The notes under the pieces were generated by a model, which was not told the DNA's origin, searched no databases, and was given only the letters and a program-made list of their open reading frames with translations. A stretch of DNA of 64,000 nt from an uncultured Bacteroidia bacterium (GTDB lineage Bacteria; Bacteroidota; Bacteroidia; Bacteroidales; UBA932). Location: the NCBI GenBank assembly GCA_902774155.1, contig CACYHF010000016.1, forward strand, positions 18,392 through 82,391. Reading direction: 5' to 3'. Each line of letters opens with the position of its first letter. The stretch's first letter is position 1. The position numbers and the translations under genes are program-made. This document shows positions 31,215 to 53,489 of the stretch, piece by piece.

Positions 31215-31251
31215 GGTAGATTGAGAATACCGCCCTCTCTATTTAGATGAA
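31215..31251 (+). promoter_or_regulatory. Island promoter element, copy 1
   Basis: GGTAGATT, 13 nt, TCTCTAT, 4 nt, ATGAA. It has the same order and spacing as six other copies in the island. The first gene starts 38 nt downstream. Confidence 0.8.
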
Positions 31252-31289
31252 ACGAGAACAAACACATTAACTCATTAAAAATACCGATT

Positions 31290-31751
31290 ATGGAATACAC
31301 AATTTGCAAAGCCGTTGAGGCTGCTTTGAAAACGCGGGAACTACACTACACGCATGAAGATGATACTTTTGAACTCTTCATGAGTGATGACAAGGCAAAC
31401 TTTAAAATCCGAGTTATCGCCGACGACGAAAGAGACATTCTTCTTATCATCGGATTCTTCCCCGTAAAGGTGTCGAAAGAGAATCTTGACAAGATGTACA
31501 AGGTCATCAATGACATCAACTATCAAACCATTTTTGGAGGCTTCGTGATTGATTCCGAAGACGGCGAATTAACCTTCCGTCTTGTAAACAATGCTGACGA
31601 TGGCGCCATCAACGAGAAAGTTGCCACCATATGCATCTATCAGGTCGCACACTGCCTCTCGTCTCACTACGAAGAGATTATGCAGGCGATGTATGGTGGC
31701 GACAAATACACCTTTACCTTTGACAGGGTGGATAATCGCCCTCGCGCATAA
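31290..31751 (+). CDS. YbjN-like domain protein
   Basis: 153 aa, acidic, with no signal peptide. The pattern of an N-terminal helix, a strand-rich centre (FELFMSDDKANFKIRVIADDERDILLIIGFFPVKV), a long helix and DGELTFRLVNN resembles the YbjN / sensory-regulator family, which has a type III secretion chaperone-like fold and usually binds partner proteins. It is the first gene of the leftmost island operon, directly under promoter copy 1, and is followed by a small protein, a RyR-domain protein and a WG-repeat lipoprotein. Its family assignment rests on overall pattern only. Confidence 0.65.
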   Translation: MEYTICKAVEAALKTRELHYTHEDDTFELFMSDDKANFKIRVIADDERDILLIIGFFPVKVSKENLDKMYKVINDINYQTIFGGFVIDSEDGELTFRLVNNADDGAINEKVATICIYQVAHCLSSHYEEIMQAMYGGDKYTFTFDRVDNRPRA

Positions 31752-31791
31752 TGAATTATTTAACCGCCGAAAGGCATAAAAACCAATAACC

Positions 31792-31998
31792 ATGAGTATT
31801 TTGAATAGCAACGACTACCAAAGAGGTAATGAGGACGGAAAGAAGGATGCCAGAGCCGGAAGGGACAAGGACTACTCCCGGGCCGGATTGACCCCAAAAT
31901 TCGCCATCTATGGCAATAAAGTGCTCGAAACCTACATCGAAGGTTACAATGACGGTTACAATACCGAAAAGAGGAATCAGATTTATAAAGGAGATTAG
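31792..31998 (+). CDS. Small charged protein, 68 aa
   Basis: I do not recognise this protein. It is rich in Asp, Lys, Arg, Gly and Tyr, with two similar turns (NDYQRGNEDGKKDA near the start and YIEGYNDGYNTEKRN near the end), which suggests a short internal duplication of a Y-x-x-G-x-x-DG unit. It has no signal peptide or membrane segment. It lies 40 nt after the YbjN-like gene and 15 nt before the RyR gene in the same operon, so it is probably translated. Confidence 0.6.
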   Translation: MSILNSNDYQRGNEDGKKDARAGRDKDYSRAGLTPKFAIYGNKVLETYIEGYNDGYNTEKRNQIYKGD

Positions 31999-32013
31999 AA
32001 CACGATTGCAACC

Positions 32014-32310
32014 ATGAATGAAACTTACATCCCGAATCCCGTGGACACATCCGATATTTGTCTTCCTGAAGAACTCCAGCCATTATCAGAAGCCCTCGCC
32101 AAAAACACACACGATATCTGGGCGCGCGCCAGAATGAGGGAAGGCTGGACCTGGGGGCCTGTCAGGGATGACCGACTAAGGAAACATCCGGATCTCGTAC
32201 CCTATGAAGACCTACCCGATACGGAGAAAGAGTACGATCGCCTCACCTCGGCCGAAACCCTCAAATTTATCATCAAACTCGGATACAAAATTCTGAACCA
32301 TTGCGTATGA
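32014..32310 (+). CDS. Stand-alone RyR-domain protein
   Basis: 98 aa, almost entirely one RyR domain: YIPNPVDTSDICLPEELQPL, then the helix ALAKNTHDIWARARMREGW, VPYEDLPDTEKEYDR and the closing helix ETLKFIIKLGYKI. This module was named from ryanodine receptors; bacterial versions are found in conflict and signalling systems, where a ligand-binding role has been proposed. A second RyR copy is fused to a C39-like domain at 38430-39530. The stop overlaps the start of the next gene (ATGA), so the two are translationally coupled. Confidence 0.82.
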   Translation: MNETYIPNPVDTSDICLPEELQPLSEALAKNTHDIWARARMREGWTWGPVRDDRLRKHPDLVPYEDLPDTEKEYDRLTSAETLKFIIKLGYKILNHCV

Positions 32311-33185
32311 AAACCTGTTTTTCTTTTATCCTTTTTCTTTCGGCATTTGCTGTTTCCTGCAGCAGAGTACCCGAAGCGCCTATTCCTGGAGAGCCTGGTT
32401 ACTATGAGTGTTCTGACTGTATGGAACTCATTCGCGGTCCTTTTCTCCGCGTAGTTCCTTCTGGAGATGGGAACGTGAGCGTATGGCACACCGGGACAAA
32501 AAAATGCATCCTTGCGGACATCAGCCCCGAGTGGGACAAGATTTCCGCGGATCAGGGACCCGACATTCTCTTCCGCGGAAAGGATGGGAAGTACGGTTTT
32601 TTCGATTCCCTGAACGGGGAACTGATTATCCCACCTGTACACCGCCGTGCATGGCCTTTCAATGAGGGCCTTTGTGCCGTGGAGGACAACGGGGAGGTCC
32701 GCTTCCTGGACGAGCGGGGAGAGCCTGTGTTCGGGAACCGCGTCTTCCCCTATTACGGCCATCCGCTGGATTATTTCGTCTTCCGGAACGGAGGATGTCC
32801 GGTCCCTGACAAGAATCTCAAATGCGGAGTAATCAACAAGGATGGTAAATGGATTATCCCACCTGAATACAAGGACATTGTGTATCTTGACGATTGCATC
32901 CTCGCACTCGGCGAAGGAAGACGCATCCAATACGGTTTCGATGGAAAGGTGACGAACCCTTTTGTCGTGGACGGAGTCTGTCCCATTCTGTTCAAGAATA
33001 AAGAGACCGGCCTGTTCCTTTATGAAGTGGAGGAGCGGTATGGCTTGATGGACGGAGAAGGTGCGCCTTTGACGGCCGCTCTCTACCGGGGAATCGAGCC
33101 CATTTCAGAAACCCTTCTCCAAGCCTGGCTTGCAGACGAGTTCTCTCGCGTCATCCTGGACAGAAAAGGAAAAATTCATTATTAG
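32307..33185 (+). CDS. WG-repeat lipoprotein
   Basis: 292 aa from the ATG that overlaps the upstream stop. A lipoprotein signal has its Cys at residue 18 (AVSC). The mature protein contains WG-type (KWG) beta repeats of the form GKYGFFDSLNGELIIPPVHRR, FNEGLCAVEDNGEVRFLDERG and CGVINKDGKWIIPPEYKDI. Such repeats are common in Bacteroidota surface and conflict proteins and probably bind other proteins or cell-wall material. It closes the first island operon and is a paralogue of the next gene, which has its own copy of the island promoter. Confidence 0.8.
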   Translation: MKTCFSFILFLSAFAVSCSRVPEAPIPGEPGYYECSDCMELIRGPFLRVVPSGDGNVSVWHTGTKKCILADISPEWDKISADQGPDILFRGKDGKYGFFDSLNGELIIPPVHRRAWPFNEGLCAVEDNGEVRFLDERGEPVFGNRVFPYYGHPLDYFVFRNGGCPVPDKNLKCGVINKDGKWIIPPEYKDIVYLDDCILALGEGRRIQYGFDGKVTNPFVVDGVCPILFKNKETGLFLYEVEERYGLMDGEGAPLTAALYRGIEPISETLLQAWLADEFSRVILDRKGKIHY

Positions 33186-33186
33186 T

Positions 33187-33223
33187 GGTAGATTGTTGAA
33201 ATTCCTCTTTCTTTATCAGTGAG
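33187..33223 (+). promoter_or_regulatory. Island promoter element, copy 2
   Basis: GGTAGATT, 13 nt, TTTCTTT, 4 nt, GTGAG. It begins 1 nt after the stop codon of the upstream gene and serves the second WG-repeat lipoprotein operon. Confidence 0.75.
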
Positions 33224-33319
33224 ACTTGAAATTAAGTCAATTTTTTCTTCCACCTCCTATTTTTGACCAGCAAGGCAGCCGTGAGGTTCCCTTGCTTACT
33301 TAAAAAAACTTTAAAACCT

Positions 33320-34234
33320 ATGAATATGAAACACATCTTTTCTTTTCTGGCTTCAGTTTTCCTGGCCACCATGATTGCAGCTTGTAGCTGCGCCCACTAC
33401 GATGAGGCCGAAGACGTCTACGAAGACGGCCTCCTCCTCAACGATGACCTCGTCGCCGTCCGCTCCTCGGACGGCAGGCTCTCCATCCGGAACACGGCCA
33501 CCGGGAAGGTGACCATCAAGGACATTAACATCGACTGGACAACTCCGTCCCCCCGGGATTCGCTCGCGGTCTTCTGTTCCGATGGCAAGCGGGGATACTA
33601 TAATGTTTACACGGGCGAGATTGCCGTCCCCGCCCAGTACCGCCGGGCCTGGATCTTCTCCGAAGGGATAGCCGCGGTCCAGCGCAACGGCAACATCGGC
33701 TTCATTGACCACCAAGGAGACGTGGTTATCGACTTCCGTTTCCCGTATCACGGCAATCCCCTTTCCTCGTTCGTCTTCAAGAATGGCCACTGTGTGGTGG
33801 CCGACCGGGAGGGTGAGTGTGGGGTCATCGACCGCTCGGGTCAGTGGATCATCCCGGCGGAATATGACTACGTGAGCGCCTACGAAGATTACGTCATCGT
33901 GACTCGCGAAGGCGTGACTCTGCAGATGGGATACGACGGCACTGTTATCAACGCATTCGTTTTGGAAGACCTCAAGGAGCTCACCTATGACGAAGAGGAG
34001 ATCCACCGGACGCGGGACGGCGACATCCAGTATGTGGAAAGGACCGTGAGTACCGGCCTGTTTGCCTATTGCATTGGAGGACGCTACGGCCTCCTAGAGG
34101 GCAAGAGCCTCAAGCGCATCACCGAGCCTCTTTACAAGAATATCTACGCTGTCTCGAAGACGATGTTCCGGGCCTACCTCCTTGACTACAACTCGGAGGT
34201 CATCCTCAACGAGAAAGGAGAAGTAATGAAGTAA
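33320..34234 (+). CDS. WG-repeat lipoprotein, paralogue of the preceding gene
   Basis: 304 aa from MNMKH. The signal peptide ends at lipobox MIAAC (Cys 22). The mature part has the same layout as the upstream WG lipoprotein: a beta-rich N-terminal part, GKRGYYNVYTGEIAVPAQYRRAW, FSEGIAAVQRNGNIGFIDHQG, CGVIDRSGQWIIPAEYDYV and a closing region ending in SEVILNEKGEVMK. Residue identity between the two is visible by eye. It starts the second island operon, followed 15 nt later by a WD40 protein and then an AAA+ ATPase. It probably sits on the outer face or in the periplasm. Confidence 0.8.
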   Translation: MNMKHIFSFLASVFLATMIAACSCAHYDEAEDVYEDGLLLNDDLVAVRSSDGRLSIRNTATGKVTIKDINIDWTTPSPRDSLAVFCSDGKRGYYNVYTGEIAVPAQYRRAWIFSEGIAAVQRNGNIGFIDHQGDVVIDFRFPYHGNPLSSFVFKNGHCVVADREGECGVIDRSGQWIIPAEYDYVSAYEDYVIVTREGVTLQMGYDGTVINAFVLEDLKELTYDEEEIHRTRDGDIQYVERTVSTGLFAYCIGGRYGLLEGKSLKRITEPLYKNIYAVSKTMFRAYLLDYNSEVILNEKGEVMK

Positions 34235-34249
34235 CCAAACCTGAGAGCC

Positions 34250-35302
34250 ATGAAAAAAACCAATCGTATCTGTTTTTATGTCACCCTGCTTCTCTCTTTC
34301 GTCGCAGGGGCGCTCGCCGCCGCTTACTTCTTCAACTGCCGTGAGCTCGGCCAAAAATTGCGTATCCTTGATTCCATCCCGCTCCGGAACGACCAGCGCA
34401 GGCAGTCCTTCCTAAGGGCAGAAGCCCCCATCGAGGATGCCGCCCTCATCGATGACACGACCCTTCTCTATCGGTCGGGAGCTTGCCTCCGGCTCCTGAA
34501 CCTTAAGGAAACTACGCCCGAGATCGTATTCCAGGGCCATTCGCAACCTGTACAGGCGTTCCGCGTGAGTCCCGATCGACGCCAGGCCGTTTCCTCCTCT
34601 ACGGACGGGACGCTTCGCCTGTGGGATGTCCGGAGCGGGGAATGCCTCGCCGTCTCCGAGCCCGTCGACACAACGGCCCAGCCTTACTGGACCCTTCTCA
34701 ACGAGATTGTCTTCCATCCTGATGGAAAGACAATTCGAACGGCCGATATGGAAGGCTTCAAGACCTGGCGGACGGACGACCTCAGCCTCCTCTCCTCCGA
34801 GGAATCCGACATCCTTTATATGTGTAACGGACTTCTCTCCCCCGACTGGAAGACCCTATGCGTCCCTGTTCTGGATGAAGGATTTCAGGTTGTCTCCTGC
34901 AAGGATGGTGGCACATTGGAGTACATCGGCAGCAAGAGTCCCCACGCCTACAGTCCGGACGGGAAACGGGTCCTCGCTGTCAACGCAGAGAACGGCACGA
35001 TGGAGATCTGGGGCATCAATCCATCGGCCGGCAAAAGATGGTCGGTCCTGTGGCTGTATAGCCCGCCTGTGCCCCTCCTGGACGCCGCCTTCTCACCGGA
35101 TGGGAAACAGCTGGTCTCTGCACACGGTGACAGAACGGTCCGGATATGGAACGCCCGGAACGGTGCCGAGAGGGAGGTTCTACACTGGAAGGTTCCCTCG
35201 ATAGACGGGGTCTGCTTTAGTCCTGACGGCATCCGTATAGTTGCCTGGAACGAAGCCTCGGGCGAAATCTGTACCTGGGGACCGTTCTGTTGGGGATACT
35301 GA
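34250..35302 (+). CDS. Membrane-anchored WD40-repeat protein
   Basis: 350 aa. An N-terminal transmembrane segment or uncleaved signal (FYVTLLLSFVAGALAAAYFF) precedes a beta-propeller. WD40 units are visible as VSPDRRQAVSSSTDGTLRLWD, FHPDGKTIRTADMEGFKTW, YSPDGKRVLAVNAENGTMEIW and FSPDGKQLVSAHGDRTVRIWN, with a last one ending in ICTW. WD40 propellers act as protein-binding platforms. In this operon it lies between a WG lipoprotein and an AAA+ ATPase, so it could link a surface sensor to a cytoplasmic or periplasmic machine. Which side of the membrane the propeller faces is not certain. Confidence 0.87.
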   Translation: MKKTNRICFYVTLLLSFVAGALAAAYFFNCRELGQKLRILDSIPLRNDQRRQSFLRAEAPIEDAALIDDTTLLYRSGACLRLLNLKETTPEIVFQGHSQPVQAFRVSPDRRQAVSSSTDGTLRLWDVRSGECLAVSEPVDTTAQPYWTLLNEIVFHPDGKTIRTADMEGFKTWRTDDLSLLSSEESDILYMCNGLLSPDWKTLCVPVLDEGFQVVSCKDGGTLEYIGSKSPHAYSPDGKRVLAVNAENGTMEIWGINPSAGKRWSVLWLYSPPVPLLDAAFSPDGKQLVSAHGDRTVRIWNARNGAEREVLHWKVPSIDGVCFSPDGIRIVAWNEASGEICTWGPFCWGY

Positions 35303-35319
35303 ATTTTAACCATCCTGCC

Positions 35320-36651
35320 ATGAACGAGTCTGTTTTTGGATTGTCCTCCATTCTTGACGTAATGCGGGACACCACAAAGGGAGCTGAAGCAATCGAAAAA
35401 TATGAGGCCCTGTTTGGCCCCATTCACGAAGAGAACGAAAAGGATAATGTGTTCTATCAAGAAAACCTTTCGCAGTTTAACCTTCAAAAACTGGAAGAGT
35501 ATGGGACAATCCGGATGCCTGACTGCATGGAGGATGAACCTGAGGAGGTCAGGGACTTGCTTCTCCGCCTGATCATTGCATCTTTTTCATCGATATGTAC
35601 ATTAACCAAAAACGAGAAGGAGATTATCGTTTCCATCGCCGTCAAAAAAACGGATGATGACGGAACTGTTGAAACCATCGAGAATGACCTTGATGAGTTT
35701 TGGTTTATCCAGGTCCTCAATCTAATGAAGATTTATCTCGAGGAGCAACTTTTCATGACTGTCCTCAGGCGAGAGGACCAGGAACAATACTGGAATGATT
35801 TTCAACAGATCAAAACCCGTTACGAGGAAAACCTCAACGCCCTTGCCCGATTGGCCGGCAAAGACCCGCAAGCAGGAGGCTTTGGGGACGTGGCCGGAAT
35901 GGACAACCTCAAAGACAGCCTCAACAAACGGATTATCTGGGTATTGAAGGACAAGGAAAAGGCCGAGAAGTACCGCCTTTCTCTACCGAATGGGATGCTT
36001 CTTTATGGCCCTCCCGGCTGCGGAAAGACCTTCTTTGCCCAGAAGTTCGCTGAAGAATCCGGTTTCCACTATCTGCTTGTTAATGGTTCGGATCTCGGGA
36101 GCATCTATGTGCACGGGACACAGGGGAAAATCGCCGAGCTTTTTAAAAAAGCCGAACAAGATGCACCGACCGTTATCTGTTTTGATGAATTTGACTCTTT
36201 TGTCCCTGCAAGGGGATCTGATTCGGCTTCCCAACGGGAAGATGAGGTGAACGAGTTCCTCTCACAGTTAAATAATTGCGCAAAGAGAGGAATCTTTGTC
36301 ATCGGCACCACCAACCGGATGGACATGATTGATCCGGCCGTCTTGCGCAAGGGGCGTATGGATATAAAAGTGGAGATTCCCGCCCCTGATGTCGAGACCA
36401 GGAAAAAGATGTTTGCGCTGCATCTGAAAGGGCGCCCCCAGGAAGAAGACATCGACCTCGGATGTCTTGCCGACCTTACGGAAGGCTATGCATCCTCGGA
36501 TATAGCTTATATCGTGAATGAGGCGGCCATCGCAGCGGCCCTGGCCGATGAACTCATTTCAACCAGTCATTTGGAGGAAGCCGTAAAGGCCAACCCTTCT
36601 TCACTGGCGCCCCTTTTGAGCACACGAAAAATTGGATTCAATTCCACATAA
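35320..36651 (+). CDS. AAA+ ATPase, CDC48/SpoVK-like
   Basis: 443 aa from the ATG at 35320. An N-terminal helical region of about 170 residues has no family I can name. The AAA module has Walker A GPPGCGKT (about residues 230-237), Walker B VICFDEFDSF (about 286-295), sensor 1 VIGTTNRMD, the Arg finger region VLRKGRMD and a C-terminal helical lid (EGYASSDIAYIVNEAAIAAA). This is the classic AAA clade of protein remodelling machines. It is the last gene of the second island operon, and promoter copy 3 begins 15 nt after its stop. It probably remodels or activates another island component. Confidence 0.92.
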   Translation: MNESVFGLSSILDVMRDTTKGAEAIEKYEALFGPIHEENEKDNVFYQENLSQFNLQKLEEYGTIRMPDCMEDEPEEVRDLLLRLIIASFSSICTLTKNEKEIIVSIAVKKTDDDGTVETIENDLDEFWFIQVLNLMKIYLEEQLFMTVLRREDQEQYWNDFQQIKTRYEENLNALARLAGKDPQAGGFGDVAGMDNLKDSLNKRIIWVLKDKEKAEKYRLSLPNGMLLYGPPGCGKTFFAQKFAEESGFHYLLVNGSDLGSIYVHGTQGKIAELFKKAEQDAPTVICFDEFDSFVPARGSDSASQREDEVNEFLSQLNNCAKRGIFVIGTTNRMDMIDPAVLRKGRMDIKVEIPAPDVETRKKMFALHLKGRPQEEDIDLGCLADLTEGYASSDIAYIVNEAAIAAALADELISTSHLEEAVKANPSSLAPLLSTRKIGFNST

Positions 36652-36666
36652 TTTTTTGCAACAGTT

Positions 36667-36703
36667 GGTAGATTGTATTGATTACCCTTTCTATTAAGAT
36701 GAA
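36667..36703 (+). promoter_or_regulatory. Island promoter element, copy 3
   Basis: GGTAGATT, 13 nt, TTTCTAT, 4 nt, ATGAA. The only gene between it and copy 4 is a 24-codon ORF. Confidence 0.8.
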
Positions 36704-36759
36704 GGCCAACAGAAACAAAGGCCATCAGGTTTATGTTTAACATTTAAATAAATTCAGCC

Positions 36760-36834
36760 ATGTCTTATTTTGATCCTGAAAACGATCCGATCGACAACGA
36801 TCCTGGAACGGGCGAATCCTCCGGCGAGGAATAG
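36760..36834 (+). CDS. Acidic 24-residue micropeptide ORF
   Basis: An ATG, 24 codons and a TAG encode a highly acidic peptide that starts MSYFDPENDPIDND and ends SSGEE, with no Lys or Arg. It sits about 56 nt downstream of promoter copy 3, alone in its unit, with an A/T-rich leader like those of the other island genes, and is followed by a perfect 15-bp hairpin. No family is known to me. It could instead be a non-coding RNA with a chance ORF. Confidence 0.45.
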   Translation: MSYFDPENDPIDNDPGTGESSGEE

Positions 36835-36869
36835 CACTACGGTTTTTTCTTTTGCCTCTTTTTGTTTTG

Positions 36870-36909
36870 TTCAAAGAAACGGGGTGATGACCTGCCCCGT
36901 TTCTTTGAA
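36870..36909 (+). other. Perfect 15-bp hairpin after the micropeptide ORF
   Basis: TTCAAAGAAACGGGG (36870-36884) pairs perfectly with 36895-36909 around a 10-nt loop. There is no T tract downstream on the plus strand, although a T-rich stretch precedes it. It may terminate or stabilise the short transcript from promoter copy 3. Confidence 0.65.
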
Positions 36910-36950
36910 GTCAAAAAAATCATGGCATCTGAAAATTTTTCAGTAAAACT

Positions 36951-36987
36951 GGTAGATTTCACCAACTGCGCTTTCTTTACATATGAA
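36951..36987 (+). promoter_or_regulatory. Island promoter element, copy 4
   Basis: GGTAGATT, 13 nt, TTTCTTT, 4 nt, ATGAA. It drives the zinc-ribbon-like protein starting 24 nt downstream. Confidence 0.78.
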
Positions 36988-37011
36988 CGTTTAACCTTTA
37001 ATTGAAAACAA

Positions 37012-37383
37012 ATGTTTAATGATTGTTACTGTAGAAAATGCGGTTCAGATGTTAACAACCCGCGTCTGGGACCAAGAAAAGTGTTGCAATCCGGAGGGCT
37101 TTTCTCCTCTCCTGTTTATGACTTAGGTGTGTGTACATCTCATAGTGAGTACGCAGAACAAGTATCTTTCTATTATTATCTTCATGATTTGTTTTGTCCG
37201 AAGTGTGGCTGTAAGGTAGGTGAAATGAATAAATACCACGACGGCTGTCTGGCAAGAGAATTTGGAGAGATTGCTTCAGATGATGCTGTTACACGTTATT
37301 TCCGCTATTGTTATTCCCACCCGGATGCAGAACAGAACATCTATATAGGCACCCAATACGGCTATCCCGGGAATATAGTTTAA
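37012..37383 (+). CDS. Cys-rich, zinc-ribbon-like protein, 123 aa
   Basis: The protein starts with CYCRKCG and has a second CPKCGCK pair near residues 63-70, so it probably binds one zinc ion as a split ribbon. Between them is an aromatic-rich stretch (SFYYYLHDLF). The C-terminal third is Tyr-rich (VTRYFRYCYSHPDA). It has no signal peptide. It is a single-gene unit under promoter copy 4. I do not recognise a family; the zinc-ribbon theme recurs in four other island proteins. Confidence 0.7.
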   Translation: MFNDCYCRKCGSDVNNPRLGPRKVLQSGGLFSSPVYDLGVCTSHSEYAEQVSFYYYLHDLFCPKCGCKVGEMNKYHDGCLAREFGEIASDDAVTRYFRYCYSHPDAEQNIYIGTQYGYPGNIV

Positions 37384-37392
37384 TTTTTCAAG

Positions 37393-37423
37393 TTGTAGAT
37401 CTCAATAATAAAACCTATATTTG
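37393..37423 (+). promoter_or_regulatory. Housekeeping-type promoter of the sigma-like gene
   Basis: TTG (37393-37395), 20 bp, TATATTTG (37416-37423), 17 nt before the ATG. The TTG is part of TTGTAGATC, which resembles the first half of the island element, but the TTTCTWT half is absent. The sigma-like gene is therefore probably transcribed by the main sigma factor. Confidence 0.65.
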
Positions 37424-37440
37424 TAAAAACCACATAAAGC

Positions 37441-38433
37441 ATGAATTCTACTGAGAGAAAATTGCTGGAAGCCTTCTTGGATAAACAGAACCCTCTTCAT
37501 TCAAGAGCAACGACAATTCTTTTCTATGGCACGCAAAAGAACGGGCTCACTTGTGACAATAGTGTGTCTCGGAGCTGCAAAAAAGCAGTACGAATGTGTT
37601 TCCAGGGGAAGAATTATATGGGGGATGAGATCAAAAAACAGTTATATGACACCTTCGTTTCCCTCTTTTGGCAGCACTTGTATAACCAGTCCGAGAAGCT
37701 ATTAAAAGCCGAGAACCTGGGTGCCTGGATTTTTGTTGTAGCATCGCGTTTCTGCAATAGTAACCGGGAAAAGATTAATTACATTCTAGGTATTACATCA
37801 CCTGTCACTATCGTTCCTCTGGATGTCAAATATGACAAAAACGAGGATATGGAGAATGACGTGGAGCCCCTCACACCAGAAATCTCAGACAACGATGACG
37901 ATGACGGCGAACAAGCATCTGATTATTCTCTCGATGTTCCTGACGAGTCCGACGATGATTCTGAATTCTCTTATCAAGAAACAGCGCGCTTGCGGCTGGA
38001 AAGCTACTTTAAGCTTATTTTGTCTTCCGGCAAACTGTTAGATGGAGAATACTATGTCAGCCTTTTAAAAGACGCGCACATCAACATGCTTTCTAAGAAA
38101 GACCTTGCCGCCAAGTATTCACGCACGACAACAAGAATTGACAAGGATCTTCAAAATGCGCGGAGTCAACTGGTTCGGGTTGCGCTGATGGACATTCGGA
38201 AGTCCTGCATGGCAGATTTCAAGGTCTATGGCCATCTTCTGACTCCCGTCTATCAGAAAGCTCTTTCCGACTTCTTCGCGGACAAACCATTCAACTCGAC
38301 GACTGTCGTTGCAGCCTACAGAGCCTTAAGGCATTTCATCAATAACGATTATGATGAGAGGATTCATGAACAAATGAAGGATGAAAGCGAAAGGGAAAAA
38401 GTTGACGAAAAATTTAAAAAATTTGAAAAATGA
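37441..38433 (+). CDS. Divergent ECF-like RNA polymerase sigma factor
   Basis: 330 aa, longer than common ECF sigmas. Residues about 62-112 look like sigma region 2 (EIKKQLYDTFVSLFWQHLYN, then LGAWIFVVASRFCNSNREKI). Residues about 204-250 look like region 4 with a helix-turn-helix (MLSKKDLAAKYSRTTTRIDK, then LQNARSQLVRVAL). An acidic linker of about 50 residues, rich in Asp and Glu, joins them, and an 80-residue C-terminal tail follows. It is the only candidate transcription factor in the island, has a housekeeping promoter and overlaps the C39-RyR gene by ATGA. I infer that it reads the shared island promoters. A non-sigma helix-turn-helix protein is the alternative. Confidence 0.68.
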   Translation: MNSTERKLLEAFLDKQNPLHSRATTILFYGTQKNGLTCDNSVSRSCKKAVRMCFQGKNYMGDEIKKQLYDTFVSLFWQHLYNQSEKLLKAENLGAWIFVVASRFCNSNREKINYILGITSPVTIVPLDVKYDKNEDMENDVEPLTPEISDNDDDDGEQASDYSLDVPDESDDDSEFSYQETARLRLESYFKLILSSGKLLDGEYYVSLLKDAHINMLSKKDLAAKYSRTTTRIDKDLQNARSQLVRVALMDIRKSCMADFKVYGHLLTPVYQKALSDFFADKPFNSTTVVAAYRALRHFINNDYDERIHEQMKDESEREKVDEKFKKFEK

Positions 38434-39530: not shown

Positions 39531-39569
39531 CTTTGTAGGGTCGGTGACATTTTACCCAAAAGGCCCCAC

Positions 39570-40655: not shown

Positions 40656-40661
40656 CGTTCC

Positions 40662-43127
40662 ATGAAATCCAAGGTCTTCATCAGCTATTCCAGAAAGGAT
40701 CTCGATTATGCCCGCCGGATTGTTTCGGATATCACGGACAAAACCGGCGTCATCCCCTGGATTGACCTCGAAGGAATCGAGAGCGGAAGACAATTCCTGG
40801 AAGTTATCGTTTCTGCGATTGATGCCTGTGAGATTCTTGTTTGTCTATTGAGCAGGAATTCCCTGGAATCTTCTTACGTTAGAAAAGAACTCACCTATGC
40901 TCTCCATATCGGCAAGACTGTCTTCCTGCTAGAGACTGAAGAAGTCGAGATCCCCGACTGGCTATGGGCACTCTATGATGGGAAATACTATCTCCCGCGG
41001 GAAGAGGGGATGATGATGGATGATATCGGCGCTTATTTGAAGCGAGAGAACTCGTCCCCCACCCCAGATATAATAAACGGTCATAAATGCGTTGATCTTG
41101 GCTTGAGTGTCCTTTGGGCCACCTGCAATATGGGCGCGGATGCCCCCTTCCTTCCCGGCGATTACTATGCATGGGGCGAAACGGAATCCAGACGCGATTC
41201 GTTTCCCCTGGAGTCTTACGCTCTCTGCGTGGAGAGAAATGGCATTCTTCGTTACACCAAATATAACGAGGACGACTCCCTTCTTAACCTCGATGAAACC
41301 CATGATGCTGCCCGGTGCTCCTGGGAAAAACCTTGGAGGATGCCCACAAGGGAAGAGATTGCCGAACTGCTGGACAATTGCGTATTCACATATATTGACG
41401 GTCCCCTTGAAGCCTTCGGAGGACAACATGTCAGAGGATGCGTGGTTACCAGCCGCATCAATCGCCGCAGTATCTTCCTGCCGCTGACGGGGTTGCAGGC
41501 GAAGTGGGGACATAACATGGCACCCTCCGAGATGGACCTCTCATCGGGACTCTTCTGGTCGTCCACCCATTCACCCTATCGCCATGGCTGTGTCGTGGAT
41601 GAAAGTGATGCGTACATCCTGTGCTTCAACCAGGAATCGCTCGGCCTGGAAAGCGATTCGCCCCTTTGCCGCCGATACAACGGGCTATGCATCAGACCCG
41701 TTGCCGATCTGAAGTCGCCCGTCCCTGCGAAGCATAACCTTTTCTCCGACTGCACCAGAAAAATCCGAAACGGGAAAGATATCTTCATTTCATATCTTGA
41801 TACAGACCAGGATGCCTTTAACGATATCGTTCGGATGATTGACCGGGAAACAGACCTCAAGGCCGTTTCCAGCAGGGTTGATGACATATACGAAGACAAA
41901 GATGATGCTATCAAGGCGCTCAGACGCTGCCGAGTGGCTGTTTTTATTCTCTCCAAGACATCGGCTCATTCCAGCGAAATGAGAAAACGGGTGCACTATG
42001 CCCAAGAAAGAGGGAAGGTCGTCATTGCTGTGTGGACTGATCTGGAAGACCCTTCCGGGTGGGTCCTATTCGAATTGGAACCTGGTGGAATCATCCGTTC
42101 TATGGACGACGCCCAAATGTCCCACCTGGCATCGTTACTGAAGGCTATGACGGAAATCCCGTACCCGGACATGACGCATCCCACCCTCCATCGCTCCCCC
42201 TTGGCATCTTTCAGCGAAGGGCTGGCCGCATTCTACGAAAACGGGTTGTGGGGGTTCCGGGACACATCCGGAAAGACGATTATCCGGCCTCAGTTCATCA
42301 GCGTTGGAGACTTCCACGGCGGGTGGGCCATTGCAGGAGACTACCGCAGGTATGGTTTCATCGACACCCGGGGCCGATGGGTCTTGAGATGTGACGACTA
42401 TGACAGAATGGGAGCGTTCCACGACGGGCTTTCCTATGTCTGGCAAAATGAAAAGCGAGGTTTCATTGACAGGAAGGGGCGCATGGTAATTCCGGCCGCC
42501 TGGGATCTTGCCGAGTCCTTCTCTGAAGGAAGGGCTATGGTAACGAAGGATGGGAAGCATGGGTTTATCGACAGGACGGGTACGGTGGTCATTCCTTTTC
42601 GATACAAACTCTCCGAAGCATTCAGTGAAGGGCTTGCCGCCGTAATGGATGAGGATGACCGTTGGGGATACATTAACAAAGAGGGCCGAACCATTATCAG
42701 GCATAAGTACCGCAGCGCCTTTTCCTTCCGGGAGGGAAAAGCTTATGTGCTGGACGAAGAAGGGCCCCTCTTCATTGACCAAAACGGGGAACGTTGCTTC
42801 GAAACGTCGTTCATTCACCGCGTCCGGGGAAGCTATTTCCAGGATGGCCGGGCTCTGGTCACCGATCTGGAAGACGAGGACTGGTACATTGACGAAAAGG
42901 GACAATTTATTAACAGACCTGACGGGTGCGAAGGGTTCCTTCCCTTCCGCGAAGGTCTTGCCGTTGTCGTCAGAAACGACAAGGCCGGATATATTGAAAA
43001 GAACGGCCGAATCGTCATTGACTGCATATATGACGGAGCCTGTTCCTTCCATGAAGGACTGGCGGCCGTTCGGATTGCTTCCGATTATTTCTATATTGAC
43101 AGTAGTGGGAAAAGAGTCAATCCTTAG
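40662..43127 (+). CDS. TIR - FISUMP - TIR - WG-repeat protein
   Basis: 821 aa. TIR1 (about 1-128) opens KVFISYSRKD and keeps the catalytic Glu (SSYVRKELTYA, Glu76). A FISUMP domain follows (about 140-348: VLWATCNMGADAP, WRMPTREEIAELL, GLCIRPV). TIR2 (about 372-500) opens KDIFISYLDTD but has Arg443 at the Glu position. The C-terminal 300 residues are seven or more WG repeats (LWGFRDTSGKTIIRPQF, RGFIDRKGRMVIPAAWD, HGFIDRTGTVVIPFRY and others), each with an F-x-EG-A segment. TIR domains with the Glu cleave NAD or make signalling nucleotides; the WG propeller-like part probably senses a ligand or partner. It ends the sigma-led operon. Confidence 0.9.
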   Translation: MKSKVFISYSRKDLDYARRIVSDITDKTGVIPWIDLEGIESGRQFLEVIVSAIDACEILVCLLSRNSLESSYVRKELTYALHIGKTVFLLETEEVEIPDWLWALYDGKYYLPREEGMMMDDIGAYLKRENSSPTPDIINGHKCVDLGLSVLWATCNMGADAPFLPGDYYAWGETESRRDSFPLESYALCVERNGILRYTKYNEDDSLLNLDETHDAARCSWEKPWRMPTREEIAELLDNCVFTYIDGPLEAFGGQHVRGCVVTSRINRRSIFLPLTGLQAKWGHNMAPSEMDLSSGLFWSSTHSPYRHGCVVDESDAYILCFNQESLGLESDSPLCRRYNGLCIRPVADLKSPVPAKHNLFSDCTRKIRNGKDIFISYLDTDQDAFNDIVRMIDRETDLKAVSSRVDDIYEDKDDAIKALRRCRVAVFILSKTSAHSSEMRKRVHYAQERGKVVIAVWTDLEDPSGWVLFELEPGGIIRSMDDAQMSHLASLLKAMTEIPYPDMTHPTLHRSPLASFSEGLAAFYENGLWGFRDTSGKTIIRPQFISVGDFHGGWAIAGDYRRYGFIDTRGRWVLRCDDYDRMGAFHDGLSYVWQNEKRGFIDRKGRMVIPAAWDLAESFSEGRAMVTKDGKHGFIDRTGTVVIPFRYKLSEAFSEGLAAVMDEDDRWGYINKEGRTIIRHKYRSAFSFREGKAYVLDEEGPLFIDQNGERCFETSFIHRVRGSYFQDGRALVTDLEDEDWYIDEKGQFINRPDGCEGFLPFREGLAVVVRNDKAGYIEKNGRIVIDCIYDGACSFHEGLAAVRIASDYFYIDSSGKRVNP

Positions 43128-43291
43128 TCACTTGAAGACGTTTTCTTCACTGGGCAAGTAGTAATGGCGTCGTAAGAAACGAGCCATTCATATGAATTCC
43201 CGCCCGACCCTCCAGAGGTGATCAAAACTAGCCACCAACCCGATTTGTTCTGATATCGTAGCCAATCAAGTTAATTATTTGGGGGGTAGTC

Positions 43292-43328
43292 GGTAGATTC
43301 GTCTGGTTCCTCTTTCTATAAGTGTGAA
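43292..43328 (+). promoter_or_regulatory. Island promoter element, copy 5
   Basis: GGTAGATT, 13 nt, TTTCTAT, 4 nt, GTGAA. Upstream, 43128-43291 holds nothing I can identify. Downstream is a nonsense-interrupted small ORF. Confidence 0.8.
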
Positions 43329-43398
43329 AGCAGAAAGGAAAGAAGATCTTAACTGCTTCAAACAGACAAAATGTTAAACAGTTAAAAACCAAAAGATT

Positions 43399-43539
43399 AT
43401 GGGACGTAATTAAGATCGCGGGCACTTCGAGAGCCGCTTCGAAACCAGACATGACAACGGCAACCGCCGCTCCAGAATGGAAGACATCAGGCGCAACACG
43501 CGCGACAGCCTCTACAAAAACCTCAATCGACACAAGTAA
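43399..43539 (+). pseudogene. Basic small ORF interrupted by an early TAA
   Basis: ATG GGA CGT AAT TAA, then 41 further sense codons in the same frame to a TAA at 43537. The downstream part encodes an Arg/Asn/His-rich peptide (starts DRGHFESRFETRH, ends YKNLNRHK). It lies 70 nt downstream of promoter copy 5. A single change such as AAA to TAA at codon 5 would explain it. Translation could restart at an internal Met (codon 27). It may be a broken small gene or a functional RNA. Confidence 0.4.
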
Positions 43540-43543
43540 CCTA

Positions 43544-43741
43544 ATGACCAAATACCGTCTGCCGGAATATTTCGCAGATGATGTAGAAAAGAGATTGGCG
43601 GCTATGATGGCCGCCATTTGTTTTATTTCCCAAACCAATAATAATTTCAAGCAGGGTTACCGGGATGTCTTCCTGTTTGTTGCTTGTTGTTATATTGGAC
43701 TGCCTATCCTAGGGACAATCACCTGCTTCAAAAACATCTGA
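43544..43741 (+). CDS. Possible small membrane protein, 65 aa
   Basis: The ATG lies 4 nt after the preceding stop. The peptide begins MTKYRLPEYFADD and contains a hydrophobic C-terminal stretch (DVFLFVACCYIGLPILGTI) that could span the membrane. Against it, a terminator-like hairpin falls inside the ORF and its 3' end overlaps the convergent TIR-Sel1 gene. Weakly supported. Confidence 0.3.
   Translation: MTKYRLPEYFADDVEKRLAAMMAAICFISQTNNNFKQGYRDVFLFVACCYIGLPILGTITCFKNI
43596..43628 (+). terminator. Terminator-like hairpin
   Basis: TGGCGGC pairs with GCCGCCA around a TATGATG loop, followed by TTTGTTTTATTT. It would end the short transcript from promoter copy 5. Confidence 0.55.
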
Positions 43742-45175
43742 AACATCAATCTCCAAATTGTGTTTCCTTGCATATCGGTCCAGCATGGATTTGGCCTCCA
43801 CGCTTCCATAATAAGCCGCGTACTTAAGCCAGAAGAGGGCAGAAGAAATGTCTTGTTTCGTGCCCCGATGGTAATAATAGCTTTCCCCTATAAGGAATGC
43901 CGCCTCTATGTCCGGAGGGAAAAAAAGGCGATCCTCTTCTTTGGCAGAAAGCAGAAGATACTTGAGCGCCTTGGTGAAATCTCTCGCCACTCCTTTTCCA
44001 TAATAGTAGCATTTCCCAACAACGGACCTTATCGTCCGGATGTCAGCTCCTCCCAACTCTCCACCATTCTTCTTCCACCAGTCGAACGACTTCACGGGAG
44101 TACTGTCTGGAGCGGTTTGGCCCCACTTATCCAAACCCGAACAATCGAAAGAATGGAGGAAAGCTTTCAAGGCAGCATCGAGATTGACAACCGTTCCGTA
44201 TCCGTTCAGATAGCACTCCCCTATCAGGAACCAAGTGCGGGGAGGACACGCGACCGAGTCTGTGAGGATGTTCAGCCATCGGAAAGCGTCGTCGACATCC
44301 CTGTCGACAACGTTCCCGGTATACTTGTGCCTTGCCATCCACCATACAGCTTCCGGCAGGCCCGCTTGCGCCGCTTCCAGCATCCTTCCCAAGGCATAAT
44401 CCTTGTCGAATATCCTGTCGGGTGCGGTTCCGGCTCTTTCAATCGGTTGCCCTTGTTTTCCGAGTGACTGGTCCAACACCATGATCGCCAGCTGATACAT
44501 TGACCTTATATCTCCAGCAGCCGACGCTATCTCGTATAGACGGGCTTCCGAGTACTTATCCCTCTTTTTTACCTTTCCATCAACGACACTCAGAGCCATC
44601 TGTTCTGTCTCAACCTGTACCCTGTAGCTGTCCCATAAAGACCGCACGTCCAACTGGATCTTTGGGAATAGAGACGCTACGACCTTGCACACGGCAACGT
44701 CCCTACCCGATTCGTTGATCCTTATCCCTGTTATTTCCTTTCCTCCCATGCCAGCGTCCTGTCCTTTGAGTGCGAGAAGAGGGGGTGGGAAACATTGTTT
44801 ATCGGGGGCCGACGAGTATGGTTCTCCTTCGATAATGAAAGGAATGATGTCTTCAGCCCTGCCGGCATCGATGAAATGCTGAACTTCATCCCCAACCCAC
44901 TCGCTTTGAGCGGCGTGAGGAGAGCATATGACGACAAGTGAACGAGAGGAATCCAACCCCTCTTTAATTTTTCGAGAAAGAACTCCGCCTATAAGATCCG
45001 TCTTATCCATGAAGATCGGGCTGATAACCTCAGGAAGCTCCGGGTGCAATCGCAAAACCTCCTGCGGAAACCGGAACTTCTCTATCCTGCGCTGAAGCCA
45101 TTCGGCCCAATCTCCATCTACATTATTGTAGCAGATGAAAGCATAATATGTATAGGGACTCACTCTCGATGACAT
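43709..45175 (-). CDS. TIR-domain protein with Sel1-like repeats
   Basis: 488 aa. The TIR domain (about 8-150) starts YYAFICYNNVDGDWAEWL and keeps the catalytic Glu (SEWVGDEVQHF, Glu97), so enzymatic activity on NAD-like substrates is plausible. The C-terminal 280 residues hold Sel1-type helical repeats (ALGRMLEAAQAGLPEAVWWMARHKY, LIGECYLNGYGTVVNLDAAL, VVGKCYYYGKGVARDFTKAL, LIGESYYYHRGTKQDISSALFWL), which usually bind proteins. It is the only island gene on the minus strand. Its ATG comes 4 nt after a TATATTTG element, suggesting a leaderless mRNA from a housekeeping-type promoter and not from the island promoter. Confidence 0.9.
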   Translation of the reverse strand: MSSRVSPYTYYAFICYNNVDGDWAEWLQRRIEKFRFPQEVLRLHPELPEVISPIFMDKTDLIGGVLSRKIKEGLDSSRSLVVICSPHAAQSEWVGDEVQHFIDAGRAEDIIPFIIEGEPYSSAPDKQCFPPPLLALKGQDAGMGGKEITGIRINESGRDVAVCKVVASLFPKIQLDVRSLWDSYRVQVETEQMALSVVDGKVKKRDKYSEARLYEIASAAGDIRSMYQLAIMVLDQSLGKQGQPIERAGTAPDRIFDKDYALGRMLEAAQAGLPEAVWWMARHKYTGNVVDRDVDDAFRWLNILTDSVACPPRTWFLIGECYLNGYGTVVNLDAALKAFLHSFDCSGLDKWGQTAPDSTPVKSFDWWKKNGGELGGADIRTIRSVVGKCYYYGKGVARDFTKALKYLLLSAKEEDRLFFPPDIEAAFLIGESYYYHRGTKQDISSALFWLKYAAYYGSVEAKSMLDRYARKHNLEIDVSDVFEAGDCP

Positions 45176-45179
45176 ACTG

Positions 45180-45187
45180 CAAATATA
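45180..45187 (-). promoter_or_regulatory. -7 element of the TIR-Sel1 gene
   Basis: The reverse strand reads TATATTTG, then CAGT, then the ATG. No clear -33 TTG. Confidence 0.5.
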
Positions 45188-45246
45188 CGAAATTTTCTCG
45201 TCGGCATATGGGATTTCGAACTCGACGATAAGATTGTATCATATTT

Positions 45247-45283
45247 GGTAGAAATGAACAGATCTGCTTTCTTTTCCTATGAA
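45247..45283 (+). promoter_or_regulatory. Island promoter element, copy 6
   Basis: GGTAGAAA, 13 nt, TTTCTTT, 4 nt, ATGAA. It drives the DnaE-like gene, which starts 62 nt downstream. Confidence 0.72.
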
Positions 45284-45345
45284 AGGCCAAAAATCCAAAG
45301 AGCAGATTATCGCCGCAGCAGCATAAACCCTTTAATTTCACCTGT

Positions 45346-47409
45346 ATGTCCTTTGTCCATCTTCATGTCCTCACGGAATACTCCTTTCTGGAAGCCACCT
45401 GCACCAACGAAACTCTTTTAAGCAAAGCCTACAAACTGGGTATGAGCGCGATTGCCATCACCGACCACGTCTCCCTGGCCGGTGTTCCCTCCTTCCTGAA
45501 GCAGGCACGTCAATACCCGTCTGTTAAGCCCATTATCGGTTGCGAAATATTGGTGGACAGTGATGGCCGGGCGAGGCATCTTCTCCTGTTGGCAAAGAAC
45601 CTCGATGGCTACCGGAACCTTGTGAGGATCGTTTCCGAGGCGCATATCGGCAATGCAGATACCCGCGAAGAGCCCTGCATTGGACGTGCAGTCCTCCAGC
45701 GTTTCCGGGACGGCCTTATCTGCTGTTCCGCCTGTTTCAATGGCGAAATATCGGCCCGTCTTCTCGATGGAGATGCCGATGCCGCAGAAGAAGCCCTCCG
45801 ATGGTATAAAGCTGTTTTCGGGGACGATTTTTACCTGGAGGTCGTGAGACATCGGACTAAGAAAGACGAATGCCACGATGCGTTATTCCGCCTGGCCGAT
45901 AAACACAGCGTCAAGATTGTTGCAACCAATGACGTTCATTTCGTTGACAAAAAGGACGTCGCGATGCAGACAGGTCAGGAGTACTTGAAAAGTGAGAGCG
46001 AAATGCGTCGTCTCTTCCCGGACCATCCGGAAGTCATTGACAACACCTTGGATGTGGCCGGGAAAATCGAGACTTATGATATCCGCCAGAACGAGATTGA
46101 ACTTCCGGAATTCGTTCTACCTAAAAAAGAACTTAAAAAAGATGGATACCTTCGTCAACTTGCTTTCAAAGGAGCGAAGAAGATCTACGGGAAACGTCTC
46201 CCGGAAGATGTTAAGAAACGCCTAGAACACGAACTGAAGGTCATCTCCAGAGAAGGCTTCACGGACCTCTTCCTCATCGTCTGGGACTATGTAAAATGGG
46301 CTCGCCAAAATGGTATTTTCGTAGGTCCCGGTCGCGGGCGTTCCCCGGGGAGCCTCATCCTGTACTGCCTCGGCGTCACCGATGTGGACCCCATCCGTCA
46401 CGGCCTTCTTTTCGAGCGCTTCATAAACCCTGAAACTCCGTCTTTCCCGGATATAGACGTAGATATAGACGCGTCGGACTGGCACCGCGTTTTCGAATAT
46501 CTTTCTCAAAAATACGGAGAGGATCATGTGGGGTTCGTGACCGCATACGGATCCATTCCTCCGCAAGATATCCTCCGCAAAAGGGCTGTTCACGCCTGTC
46601 GGATTGTCCTGGGGCAGAAGCCGCTCTGTGAATACTTACCCCTTAACACCTGTACGTACAAGGTTAACGGACGACACTACCCGGTTTCGCAGTTCTCTGC
46701 CACAGACTGCGACGGGACCGGGGTGGTTCCTTTGGACATCATCGGCCTGAAGGATCTGACTCATATGGATTATTGCCTCCGTCTTGTCAAGGAGCGCTAT
46801 GGGGAAGAGATTGACATCAGGGCTATTCCTCAGGACGACCCGGAGACCTTCGCCCTTTACGCTCGCGGAGACATGGACGGGATCTTCCATTGTGATGATC
46901 CGGATGTAAAAACTATGCTCCGCATCATGAGACCAGACCGTCTGGAGGACCTGATGATAGTGGAAGCACTCCGGCAAGAGATTGGCCTGAACAGTTTCCC
47001 CAAGGCCGTTTCCGTAAAAAGAGGACGAGCAATTCCAGGCACGGGTATCCCCGAGGCGGATGACATCCTCGCAGAAACCTACGGTCTCACCCTCTATCAG
47101 GAGCAGGTAATGATTATGACCCAGATAGTAGCGGGATTCTCGCCGGAGTCCTCGGATTTCCTGCGAAGGGCTTTGGCTCGCAATGACCTTTGGAAGCTGG
47201 AGGACAACCATCGTGTTTTTATTTTAGGGGGACTCCTGAAAGGAGCAGATCCCGATGCGCTAGAGGCCCTCTGGTCTTCCTGGATCTCTGCCAAGCAACG
47301 GCTGTTTAACAAATCCCACGCTGCTTGTTATGCCCTCCTGAGCTACCGGACCGCTTGGTTGAAAGCACATTATCCGGAAGAGTTCGAGGAAACGGCCGAA
47401 TGCGTATGA
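45346..47409 (+). CDS. Shortened DnaE-like DNA polymerase III alpha subunit
   Basis: 687 aa against about 1000-1160 in normal DnaE. The PHP domain (about 1-200) reads HLHVLTEYS, where the third His of HLHVHTEYS is Leu, so metal binding may be weakened. The palm keeps GPGRGRSPGSL, the catalytic pair in PDIDVDID (Asp369, Asp371) and the third Asp in DIIGLKDL (Asp464). The fingers region ends FNKSHAACYALLSYRTAWLKAHYP, and the protein stops there, lacking the C-terminal helix-hairpin-helix, OB fold and clamp- and tau-binding parts. Promoter copy 6 precedes it and copy 7 starts 15 nt after its stop, so the shortness looks native. It may be a specialised, non-processive polymerase. Confidence 0.88.
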   Translation: MSFVHLHVLTEYSFLEATCTNETLLSKAYKLGMSAIAITDHVSLAGVPSFLKQARQYPSVKPIIGCEILVDSDGRARHLLLLAKNLDGYRNLVRIVSEAHIGNADTREEPCIGRAVLQRFRDGLICCSACFNGEISARLLDGDADAAEEALRWYKAVFGDDFYLEVVRHRTKKDECHDALFRLADKHSVKIVATNDVHFVDKKDVAMQTGQEYLKSESEMRRLFPDHPEVIDNTLDVAGKIETYDIRQNEIELPEFVLPKKELKKDGYLRQLAFKGAKKIYGKRLPEDVKKRLEHELKVISREGFTDLFLIVWDYVKWARQNGIFVGPGRGRSPGSLILYCLGVTDVDPIRHGLLFERFINPETPSFPDIDVDIDASDWHRVFEYLSQKYGEDHVGFVTAYGSIPPQDILRKRAVHACRIVLGQKPLCEYLPLNTCTYKVNGRHYPVSQFSATDCDGTGVVPLDIIGLKDLTHMDYCLRLVKERYGEEIDIRAIPQDDPETFALYARGDMDGIFHCDDPDVKTMLRIMRPDRLEDLMIVEALRQEIGLNSFPKAVSVKRGRAIPGTGIPEADDILAETYGLTLYQEQVMIMTQIVAGFSPESSDFLRRALARNDLWKLEDNHRVFILGGLLKGADPDALEALWSSWISAKQRLFNKSHAACYALLSYRTAWLKAHYPEEFEETAECV

Positions 47410-47424
47410 AAAGATTATTGAATC

Positions 47425-47461
47425 GGTAGATTCCTGCAGATTTGATTTCTATATAGTTGAA
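47425..47461 (+). promoter_or_regulatory. Island promoter element, copy 7
   Basis: GGTAGATT, 13 nt, TTTCTAT, 4 nt, TTGAA. It heads the six-gene unit from the PEGA lipoprotein to the last WG-repeat protein. Confidence 0.8.
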
Positions 47462-47481
47462 ATGATTAAATGATTACCGCT

Positions 47482-53452: not shown

Positions 53453-53489
53453 ACCCGTAATAAAGACGGAGAATCTAGAACAATCTACC
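53453..53489 (-). promoter_or_regulatory. Degenerate, inward-facing copy of the island element
   Basis: On the reverse strand GGTAGATT is followed after 13 nt by CGTCTTT (five of seven matches), but the DTGAA part is missing. It faces back into the island, antisense to the last WG gene. Confidence 0.3.

Follow-up and report, generated by a model that had tools for sequence, protein, structure and literature searches.

A probable two-box promoter element repeated across a Bacteroidales accessory island, with a candidate dedicated sigma factor

An accessory island within a 64,000-nucleotide (nt) stretch from an uncultured Bacteroidia bacterium of the order Bacteroidales (contig CACYHF010000016.1, positions 18,392 to 82,391 of the forward strand; this whole stretch is the window) carries seven copies of one two-box element, which very likely are promoters of the island's own dedicated sigma factor, a divergent extracytoplasmic function (ECF)-type protein encoded at 37441-38433; we consider this the best account of the element. 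A first-pass annotation of this DNA had reported seven plus-strand copies at 31215, 33187, 36667, 36951, 43292, 45247, and 47425, all of which we confirmed, and had read them as a single regulon under one dedicated sigma factor or activator. That proposal is supported at the sequence level only, by the restriction of the element to the island, by the sigma-like protein encoded there, by the same layout in related loci, and by a TAnnTTTG box before the sigma genes of the long type. The partner gene next to the sigma gene and the recurrence in other Bacteroidales go beyond the annotation.

The element and its restriction to the island

The layout GGTAGAWW-N13-TYTCTWT-N4-DTGA is constant across the seven copies. 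The annotation had described it as fixed; this holds in the window, but the spacer and the -35 box vary by lineage, as described below. GGTAGA, TGA, and the final T of the -10 block are present in 7/7 copies, and the TT following GGTAGA, the TTTCT, and the full TGAA in 6/7 each. Six of the seven match GGTAGA-N15-TTTCTWT exactly, the copy at 31215 having TCTCTAT instead; in 100 dinucleotide-shuffled versions of the window, six exact matches never occurred. The copies, with their -10 and third blocks and the genes they head, are as follows.

31215-31251, plus strand: copy 1, GGTAGATT-N13-TCTCTAT-N4-ATGAA; heads genes for a YbjN-like protein, a small open reading frame (ORF), a RyR protein, and a WG protein
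33187-33223, plus strand: copy 2, TTTCTTT and GTGAG; heads WG, WD40, and AAA genes
36667-36703, plus strand: copy 3, TTTCTAT and ATGAA; heads a 24-codon ORF (36760-36834) and a hairpin
36951-36987, plus strand: copy 4, TTTCTTT and ATGAA; heads a small zinc-ribbon-like ORF, the sigma gene, the gene for a C39-like/RyR/zinc-ribbon protein, and two TIR genes
43292-43328, plus strand: copy 5, TTTCTAT and GTGAA; heads small ORFs without a recognized family
45247-45283, plus strand: copy 6, GGTAGAAA, TTTCTTT and ATGAA; heads a DnaE-like gene
47425-47461, plus strand: copy 7, TTTCTAT and TTGAA; heads PEGA, CAP/VWA, PP2C, kinase, zinc-ribbon, and WG genes, to 53392

The 13-nt spacers had been said to share no sequence. 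This needs qualifying, since a C directly before the -10 block and a T at element position 17 each occur in 6/7 copies; mean pairwise identity of the spacers is nonetheless just 0.34. The upstream and downstream flanks show a mean pairwise identity of 0.29, and with both values this low the element is therefore not a copied repeat.

In the source genome (2,428,135 bases in 88 contigs) the strict pattern gave six forward matches, with none in reverse and none for the controls. When at most three mismatches were tolerated, the extended pattern TTGGTAGATT-N13-TTTCTWT-N5-TGAA matched the 2.43-Mb genome seven times, at exactly the seven copies, all on one strand; controls again gave none. A genome-wide scan had been suggested as a check on the element, and in it the matches of the extended pattern fell inside the island (7/7) and not at random sites. 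The two boxes alone are much less telling: with up to three mismatches the window has eight matches, where chance gives a mean of 2.05 and one shuffle in 100 gave as many. The eighth of these, on the minus strand at 53462, has two mismatches, is weaker, and lies just beyond the last island gene. Among 398 genomes of a family sample, 171 had a match when one mismatch was tolerated, in numbers that resemble the reversed control and look like background; at this tolerance the source genome has six matches, all on one strand, and genome G046 also has six, split two and four over the strands.

None of the seven elements has a TAnnTTTG box in place of its -10 block; TAnnTTTG is reported as the -7 box of sigma-A promoters in Flavobacterium psychrophilum (PMC9723704). 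Plus-strand genes from 31290 to 53392 form seven stretches with the element at the head of each, and their arrangement suggests that each stretch is one transcript. The annotation placed each copy directly ahead of a transcription unit, which is evident for five of them; the copy at 36667 precedes only the 24-codon ORF and a hairpin, and that at 43292 only small ORFs. In 2-kb windows, G+C content is 43 to 55% in the island (about 30 to 54 kb) and 50 to 62% in its surroundings.

The sigma-like gene and its partner

The sigma-like gene stands behind copy 4, preceded by a housekeeping-type box and followed by a gene whose start overlaps it by 4 nt.

37416-37423, plus strand: TAnnTTTG box (TATATTTG) of the housekeeping -7 type, 25 nt before the sigma ATG
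37441-38433, plus strand: putative divergent ECF-type sigma factor of 330 amino acids with a C-terminal extension; proposed reader of the element
38430-39530, plus strand: protein with N-terminal helices, a C39-like peptidase fold, a RyR domain, and a zinc ribbon; proposed anti-sigma factor and sensor (the partner)

Relatives were collected mainly through the partner. With the window sigma as query, 1/41, 3/398, and 1/295 genomes gave a match, source genome included; one of these, in G392, is a weak match containing stops, and its locus (L042) was left out of the locus count. Genome contigs and viral contigs scanned with the sigma protein alone gave nothing, and the RyR partner found no match in viral contigs. 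Twelve loci from the partner-protein query make up set 1, in which L046 and L053 are near-duplicates and L048 is a contig of genome G329. With the partner alignment as query, matches at E ≤ 1e-30 came from the source genome alone among 395 genomes of a phylum sample, and from 37 of 400 genomes of a genus sample, about a dozen of these being near full length and the rest covering mostly the RyR domain alone; nine loci from this genus search (L086-L093 and L096) make up set 2. L094 and L095, which turned out to be the L053 and L046 contigs, were left out of the analysis.

In 19 of 22 loci (the window, L043-L045, L047-L052, L054, and L086-L093), 8 of the 9 loci of set 2 among them, the gene immediately before the RyR/zinc-ribbon gene is sigma-like; such a gene was not recognized in L046, L053, and L096. 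The likeness to sigma factors is clearest in relatives of the window protein. The NCBIfam model TIGR02937 (sigma70-ECF; cutoff, 42.9 bits) is passed by the short proteins of L054 (45.7 bits) and L051 (44.3 bits), and those of L044, L045, and L052 match it below the cutoff, with E values between 1e-6 and 2e-8. Altogether, 7 of 11 members of the sigma family reach E ≤ 1 with this model, the best at 5.3e-12; the window protein is not one of these, and it matches its relative in L044 at 4e-28 in blastp. L047 and L049 gave weak matches only, to other sigma models, and L048 and L053 matched no sigma model. The predicted structure of the window sigma (mean predicted local distance difference test score [pLDDT], 74.8) has helical parts linked by a low-confidence stretch, residues 120 to 176; a Foldseek search of the PDB with this model returned ECF sigmas as its best matches, all weak (for the top one, E 0.0074 and probability 1.00). 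Against the PDB, the sigma family profile matched a single chain at E ≤ 0.1, the RpoE of 9n9q (E 0.002), over what we assign, by our own naming of regions, to region 4 and the part that follows. In the sigma genes of L043, L044, and L045, an extra helix-turn-helix-like match (YlxM, and in L044 also Sig-70_X6) follows region 4, giving the impression of a duplicated region.

The partner model (pLDDT 76.4) resembles C39 peptidases and a RyR-like protein of Bacteroides thetaiotaomicron in fold, and the N-terminal helices of the partner could be an anti-sigma domain. Residues H265, W268, and D312 are invariant in all 13 rows of the partner alignment; placed by eye, they seem to correspond to H75, W78, and D117 of RyDEP. 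According to a preprint (PMC13232231), phage RyR-domain proteins bind 2' and 3' cyclic ADP-ribose, which one of them also cleaves, and H75, W78, H100, and D117 are the residues placed at the ligand. The stand-alone RyR protein encoded at 32014 seems, again by eye, to keep the equivalents of all four ligand residues.

Housekeeping-type boxes recur before the sigma genes as well. A TAnnTTTG box lies 25 to 41 nt before the start in 9/9 loci where a long gene occupies the sigma position (the window, L043-L049, and L053), where chance would give one in 1 to 6% of cases per 80 nt; these nine include L046 and L053, whose gene is not recognized as sigma, and the starts used for L046, L047, L049, and L053 are off by a few bases. 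No such box was found close upstream of the sigma start in the four short-type loci tested. With this box before it, the sigma would therefore be made at a basal level, and since the sigma stretch of the window has element copy 4 ahead of it as well, there would be room for self-amplification.

Recurrence of the element in other Bacteroidales

We scanned set 1 with a matrix built from the seven window sites only, with L046 dropped as the near-duplicate of L053. At a score of at least 12 and gaps of 13 or 14, 12 of 36 matches fell in the promoter zones of the 11 loci, zones that hold 4.4% of the bases; 200 column-permuted matrices gave a mean of 1.75 zone matches and a maximum of 8, so that none (0/200) reached 12. 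At score 11, 16 of 72 matches were in zones (permuted mean, 3.93; maximum, 12), and at score 10, 23 of 139 (permuted mean, 7.61; maximum, 18). Some of the 12 zone matches are doubtful (L052 at 10700, L054 at 14990, and L045 at 9943), and L052 is counted below as a locus without the element. When gaps from 8 to 20 were scanned, zone matches peaked at gap 14 (15/39). An unrestricted split-5-mer count of whole loci returned repeats and A/T-rich or G/C-rich noise in the relatives.

Local versions of the element cluster at the sigma/RyR loci. In L048, GTCATTTT-N13-[AG]CTCTAT occurs twice, and these are the only two exact matches in G329, both at the sigma locus; a third match, with one mismatch, lies elsewhere on the same contig. 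L045 has GATAGATT-N14-ACTCTTA 52 nt before an ORF. For the gene at the sigma position of L046 and L053, 364 nt separate the preceding element copy from the ORF start that was used. Searched genome-wide, GRTAGA-N17-YTCTWT has 3/4 matches at the locus in G707 (L043), 3/5 in G708 (L044), and 1/7 in G718 (L054), and its two matches in the source genome are both outside the island; for the N16 version the share at the locus is 7/9 in the source genome, 2/4 in G717 (L053), and 1/2 in G710 (L046). Among the products of genes behind the set 1 elements are RyR, C39-like/RyR, WG, DnaJ, M20 peptidase, and fn3 proteins; ten genes were scanned, and four had no family above the cutoff, one of these four having a WG match just below it. 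In three minus-strand copies of L044 (15125, 16700, and 18224) the -10 block is followed by a common GTTGTAATC, which makes their third block longer than that of the window.

For set 2, a split-5-mer count of promoter zones, made with the window motif unused and with no shuffle control, brought out GTTAGATT...CTCTTAT in L088, L090, and L091 with the window's spacing, ranked first below five A- or T-rich patterns. L089 has one GTTAGATT-type element with a spacer of 14, 59 nt before the sigma gene. Of the genome-wide matches to the GTTAGA pattern with at most one mismatch, 3/3 in G376, 3/5 in G1152, and 2/2 in G419 are at the locus; the source genome has no match.

Overall, a version of the element was recognized in 12 of 22 loci (the window, L043, L044, L045, L046, L048, L053, L054, L088, L089, L090, and L091), or in 11 of 21 if L046 and L053 are merged. 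Its spacer is 13 or 14 nt, and its -35 box differs by lineage (GGTAGATT, GATAGATT, GTTAGATT, and GTCATTTT) beside the same gene pair. In six related genomes the majority of genome-wide matches to the local version sit at the sigma/RyR locus. As far as sequence can tell, the genes of such loci appear to have a two-box promoter of their own with fixed spacing, with the reservation that ten loci yielded none (below). Element-like matches with a spacer of 14 also lie inside the short-type sigma genes of L050 (9696), L051 (1742), L086 (9652), L091 (9571), and L093 (10776), about 250 to 310 nt before the partner gene; they may be conserved codons or an internal promoter, and, being within coding sequence, they were excluded from the tally.

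Several results tell against the reading of the elements as promoters of a dedicated sigma factor. On the protein side, neither Pfam nor NCBIfam gave a significant match for the window sigma itself, no Foldseek match of its model reached E 0.001, and the gene before the RyR gene in L046 and L053 matches no sigma model (L053 being the one tested); for the partner, no known anti-sigma family was found among the 25 listed of the 54 Pfam families that 13 members matched at E ≤ 1. On the promoter side, the gap scan of set 1 gave 9/27 zone matches at gap 12 and 8/27 at gap 16, and at gap 13, that of the window, 1/33. Loose-pattern totals across relatives were not above the reversed-pattern controls overall; only clustering at the locus is informative. 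Binomial values for this clustering range from 2e-14 to 1e-2 and are too favorable where a pattern had been fitted on the loci it was tested on. In set 2 the window matrix showed no enrichment, its two zone matches at score 12 being equaled or exceeded by 44 of 200 permuted matrices, which counts against a simple extension of the window's motif, and the split-5-mer count that found the set 2 version had, as noted, no shuffle control. The GTTAGA matches of G284 (2/2) and G1284 (1/1) are off the locus, and three relatives (G011, G081, and G1299) have no match to it. Finally, no element was recognized in 10 of the 22 loci (L047, L049, L050, L051, L052, L086, L087, L092, L093, and L096).

Among other explanations, we think it unlikely that the element is the binding site of an activator or repressor, with the housekeeping polymerase starting nearby. 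A dimer could bind the two fixed blocks of the element, but these are neither direct nor inverted repeats of one another, and the third block, with TGA in every copy, is placed where the start region would be. A TAnnTTTG box at 33258, between copy 2 and the ATG of its first gene at 33320, would suit such a regulator; this is the only copy with that box between element and first gene. The lack of a family match for the window sigma itself also speaks for this explanation, whereas the neighbor gene that recurs with the element is sigma-like. It is quite improbable that another alternative sigma of the genome reads the element and the island has borrowed it: other ECF sigma factors probably exist in this genome, yet the extended pattern has no match outside the island (7/7 lie inside it), and the box differs between genomes with different local sigma lineages. 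Seven near-identical short stretches within one accessory island might also be remnants of a dispersed repeat or of a mobile-element end, nonregulatory in either case, a notion that we dismiss as most improbable given unrelated spacers and flanks, a single orientation for all copies, and relatives that keep the layout and not the letters.

A proposed circuit, known systems, and the island genes

If the island sigma is the reader of the element, RNA polymerase carrying it would recognize GGTAGATT as the -35 box and TTTCTWT as the -10 box, with TGAA near the start point. The box TATATTTG at 37416, together with copy 4 upstream, would provide sigma and partner at a low level and then amplification. 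The partner, which combines a C39-like fold, a RyR domain, and a zinc ribbon, would keep the sigma inactive; a signal reaching the sensor part of the partner would end this, and all seven units would then turn on together. ECF sigmas are reported to require near-consensus boxes and a rigid spacer (PMC6411747).

Gene content may hint at the signal itself: the juxtaposition of TIR genes and RyR domains is suggestive of an ADP-ribose-type messenger. In a possible but doubtful extension of the circuit, the TIR proteins would make such a messenger from NAD, the RyR domain of the partner would bind it, the partner would release (or cut) the sigma, and the GNTAGATT promoters would turn on the island. 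Were this correct, TIR/NAD signaling would be joined directly to promoter choice, and Bacteroidales would hold a family of coevolving, mutually insulated sigma/promoter pairs.

An ECF regulon is a known kind of system; what appears new here is the makeup of the partner and the readable covariation of box and sigma. The window shares with ECF sigma systems two boxes at fixed spacing, a sigma gene beside a likely partner gene, an element upstream of the sigma's own stretch, and, in relatives, the sigma70-ECF match; it differs in the length of the protein (330 amino acids), its low-confidence linker and C-terminal extension, its scores below any family cutoff, and its -35 box, GNTAGATT as against GGAACA in the sigma-H complex described in PMC6411747. 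RyDEP and the other phage RyR proteins of the preprint PMC13232231 have in common with this island the RyR domain (PF02026), apparently matching residues, and TIR genes nearby, but those proteins are presented there as phage evasion enzymes or sponges, whereas in this bacterial genome the RyR domain is part of a protein that also has a C39-like fold and a zinc ribbon and whose gene adjoins the sigma gene. The EACC2/caspase conflict systems with a coupled ECF sigma (PMC8195603) likewise place a peptidase-bearing sensor beside an ECF sigma as a proposed switch of many genes; the domains reported there are caspase and EACC2, in contrast to C39-like and RyR here. The CRISPR-linked protease Csx29 system (PMC10028731) also has a protease and a sigma factor in one defense setting; no CRISPR parts turned up in general Pfam scans of the island, which did not include a search aimed at them. 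RpoE of the RNA-guided transcription complex (PDB 9n9q) is the sole solved chain that the sigma family profile matched, weakly, and Pfam scans of the island proteins revealed no guide-RNA protein. As for Thoeris, TIR domains are present, and PADLOC run on 10 island proteins gave weak ThsB matches and no ThsA. Among the matches listed from the open-access literature there was no description of the sigma/RyR-partner pair, which is weak evidence of absence.

A sigma devoted to one accessory island, with a promoter code of its own, can seldom be recognized from sequence alone. This code is readable in several lineages, and its -35 box changes with the local sigma, which offers natural sigma/promoter pairs for testing. 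The partner couples a peptidase-like fold to RyR, a domain reported to bind TIR-made signals in phages (PMC13232231); if the partner senses such a signal, NAD-based immunity would gain a transcription branch.

The remaining island genes, assigned mainly by Pfam, are as follows.

31290-31751, plus strand: YbjN-like protein
32014-32310, plus strand: stand-alone RyR domain protein
32307-33185, plus strand: WG-repeat protein
33320-34234, plus strand: WG-repeat protein
34250-35302, plus strand: WD40-type repeat protein
35320-36651, plus strand: AAA ATPase, FtsH/CDC48-like, with partial likeness to anti-phage IetA/IteA models
37012-37383, plus strand: small protein with a weak zinc-ribbon match
39570-40655, plus strand: TIR domain protein; C-terminal Lcl_C/Fib_succ region weakly matched
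40662-43127, plus strand: protein with two TIR domains and WG repeats
43709-45175, minus strand: TIR-Sel1 protein, with TATATTTG at 45187-45180 and no element
45346-47409, plus strand: short DnaE-like protein, with PHP, NTPase, and finger parts only
47482-47925, plus strand: PEGA-domain protein (ATG at 47482; in-frame start at 47470 possible)
47932-49317, plus strand: CAP protein with a weak VWA match
49408-50451, plus strand: PP2C phosphatase
50463-51689, plus strand: protein kinase
51714-52265, plus strand: zinc-ribbon protein
52283-53392, plus strand: WG-repeat protein, final gene of the run

In the protein encoded at 40662, the first TIR domain keeps the Glu of SSYVRKEL, which we take to be the catalytic residue; judged by eye, its second TIR domain and the TIR domain encoded at 39570 do not. 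Behind copy 5 (43399-43741) there is one very short ORF and then small ORFs; the one scanned there, 43451-43741, had no family match. The DnaE-like protein, 687 amino acids long, is shorter than the models of replicative DnaE and has a copy of the element of its own. Behind copy 3, the 24-codon ORF is followed by a 16-pair hairpin (36760-36910 for the two together), and the stretch 36696-36940 folds at z = -3.56; this unit is perhaps a small RNA or a peptide.

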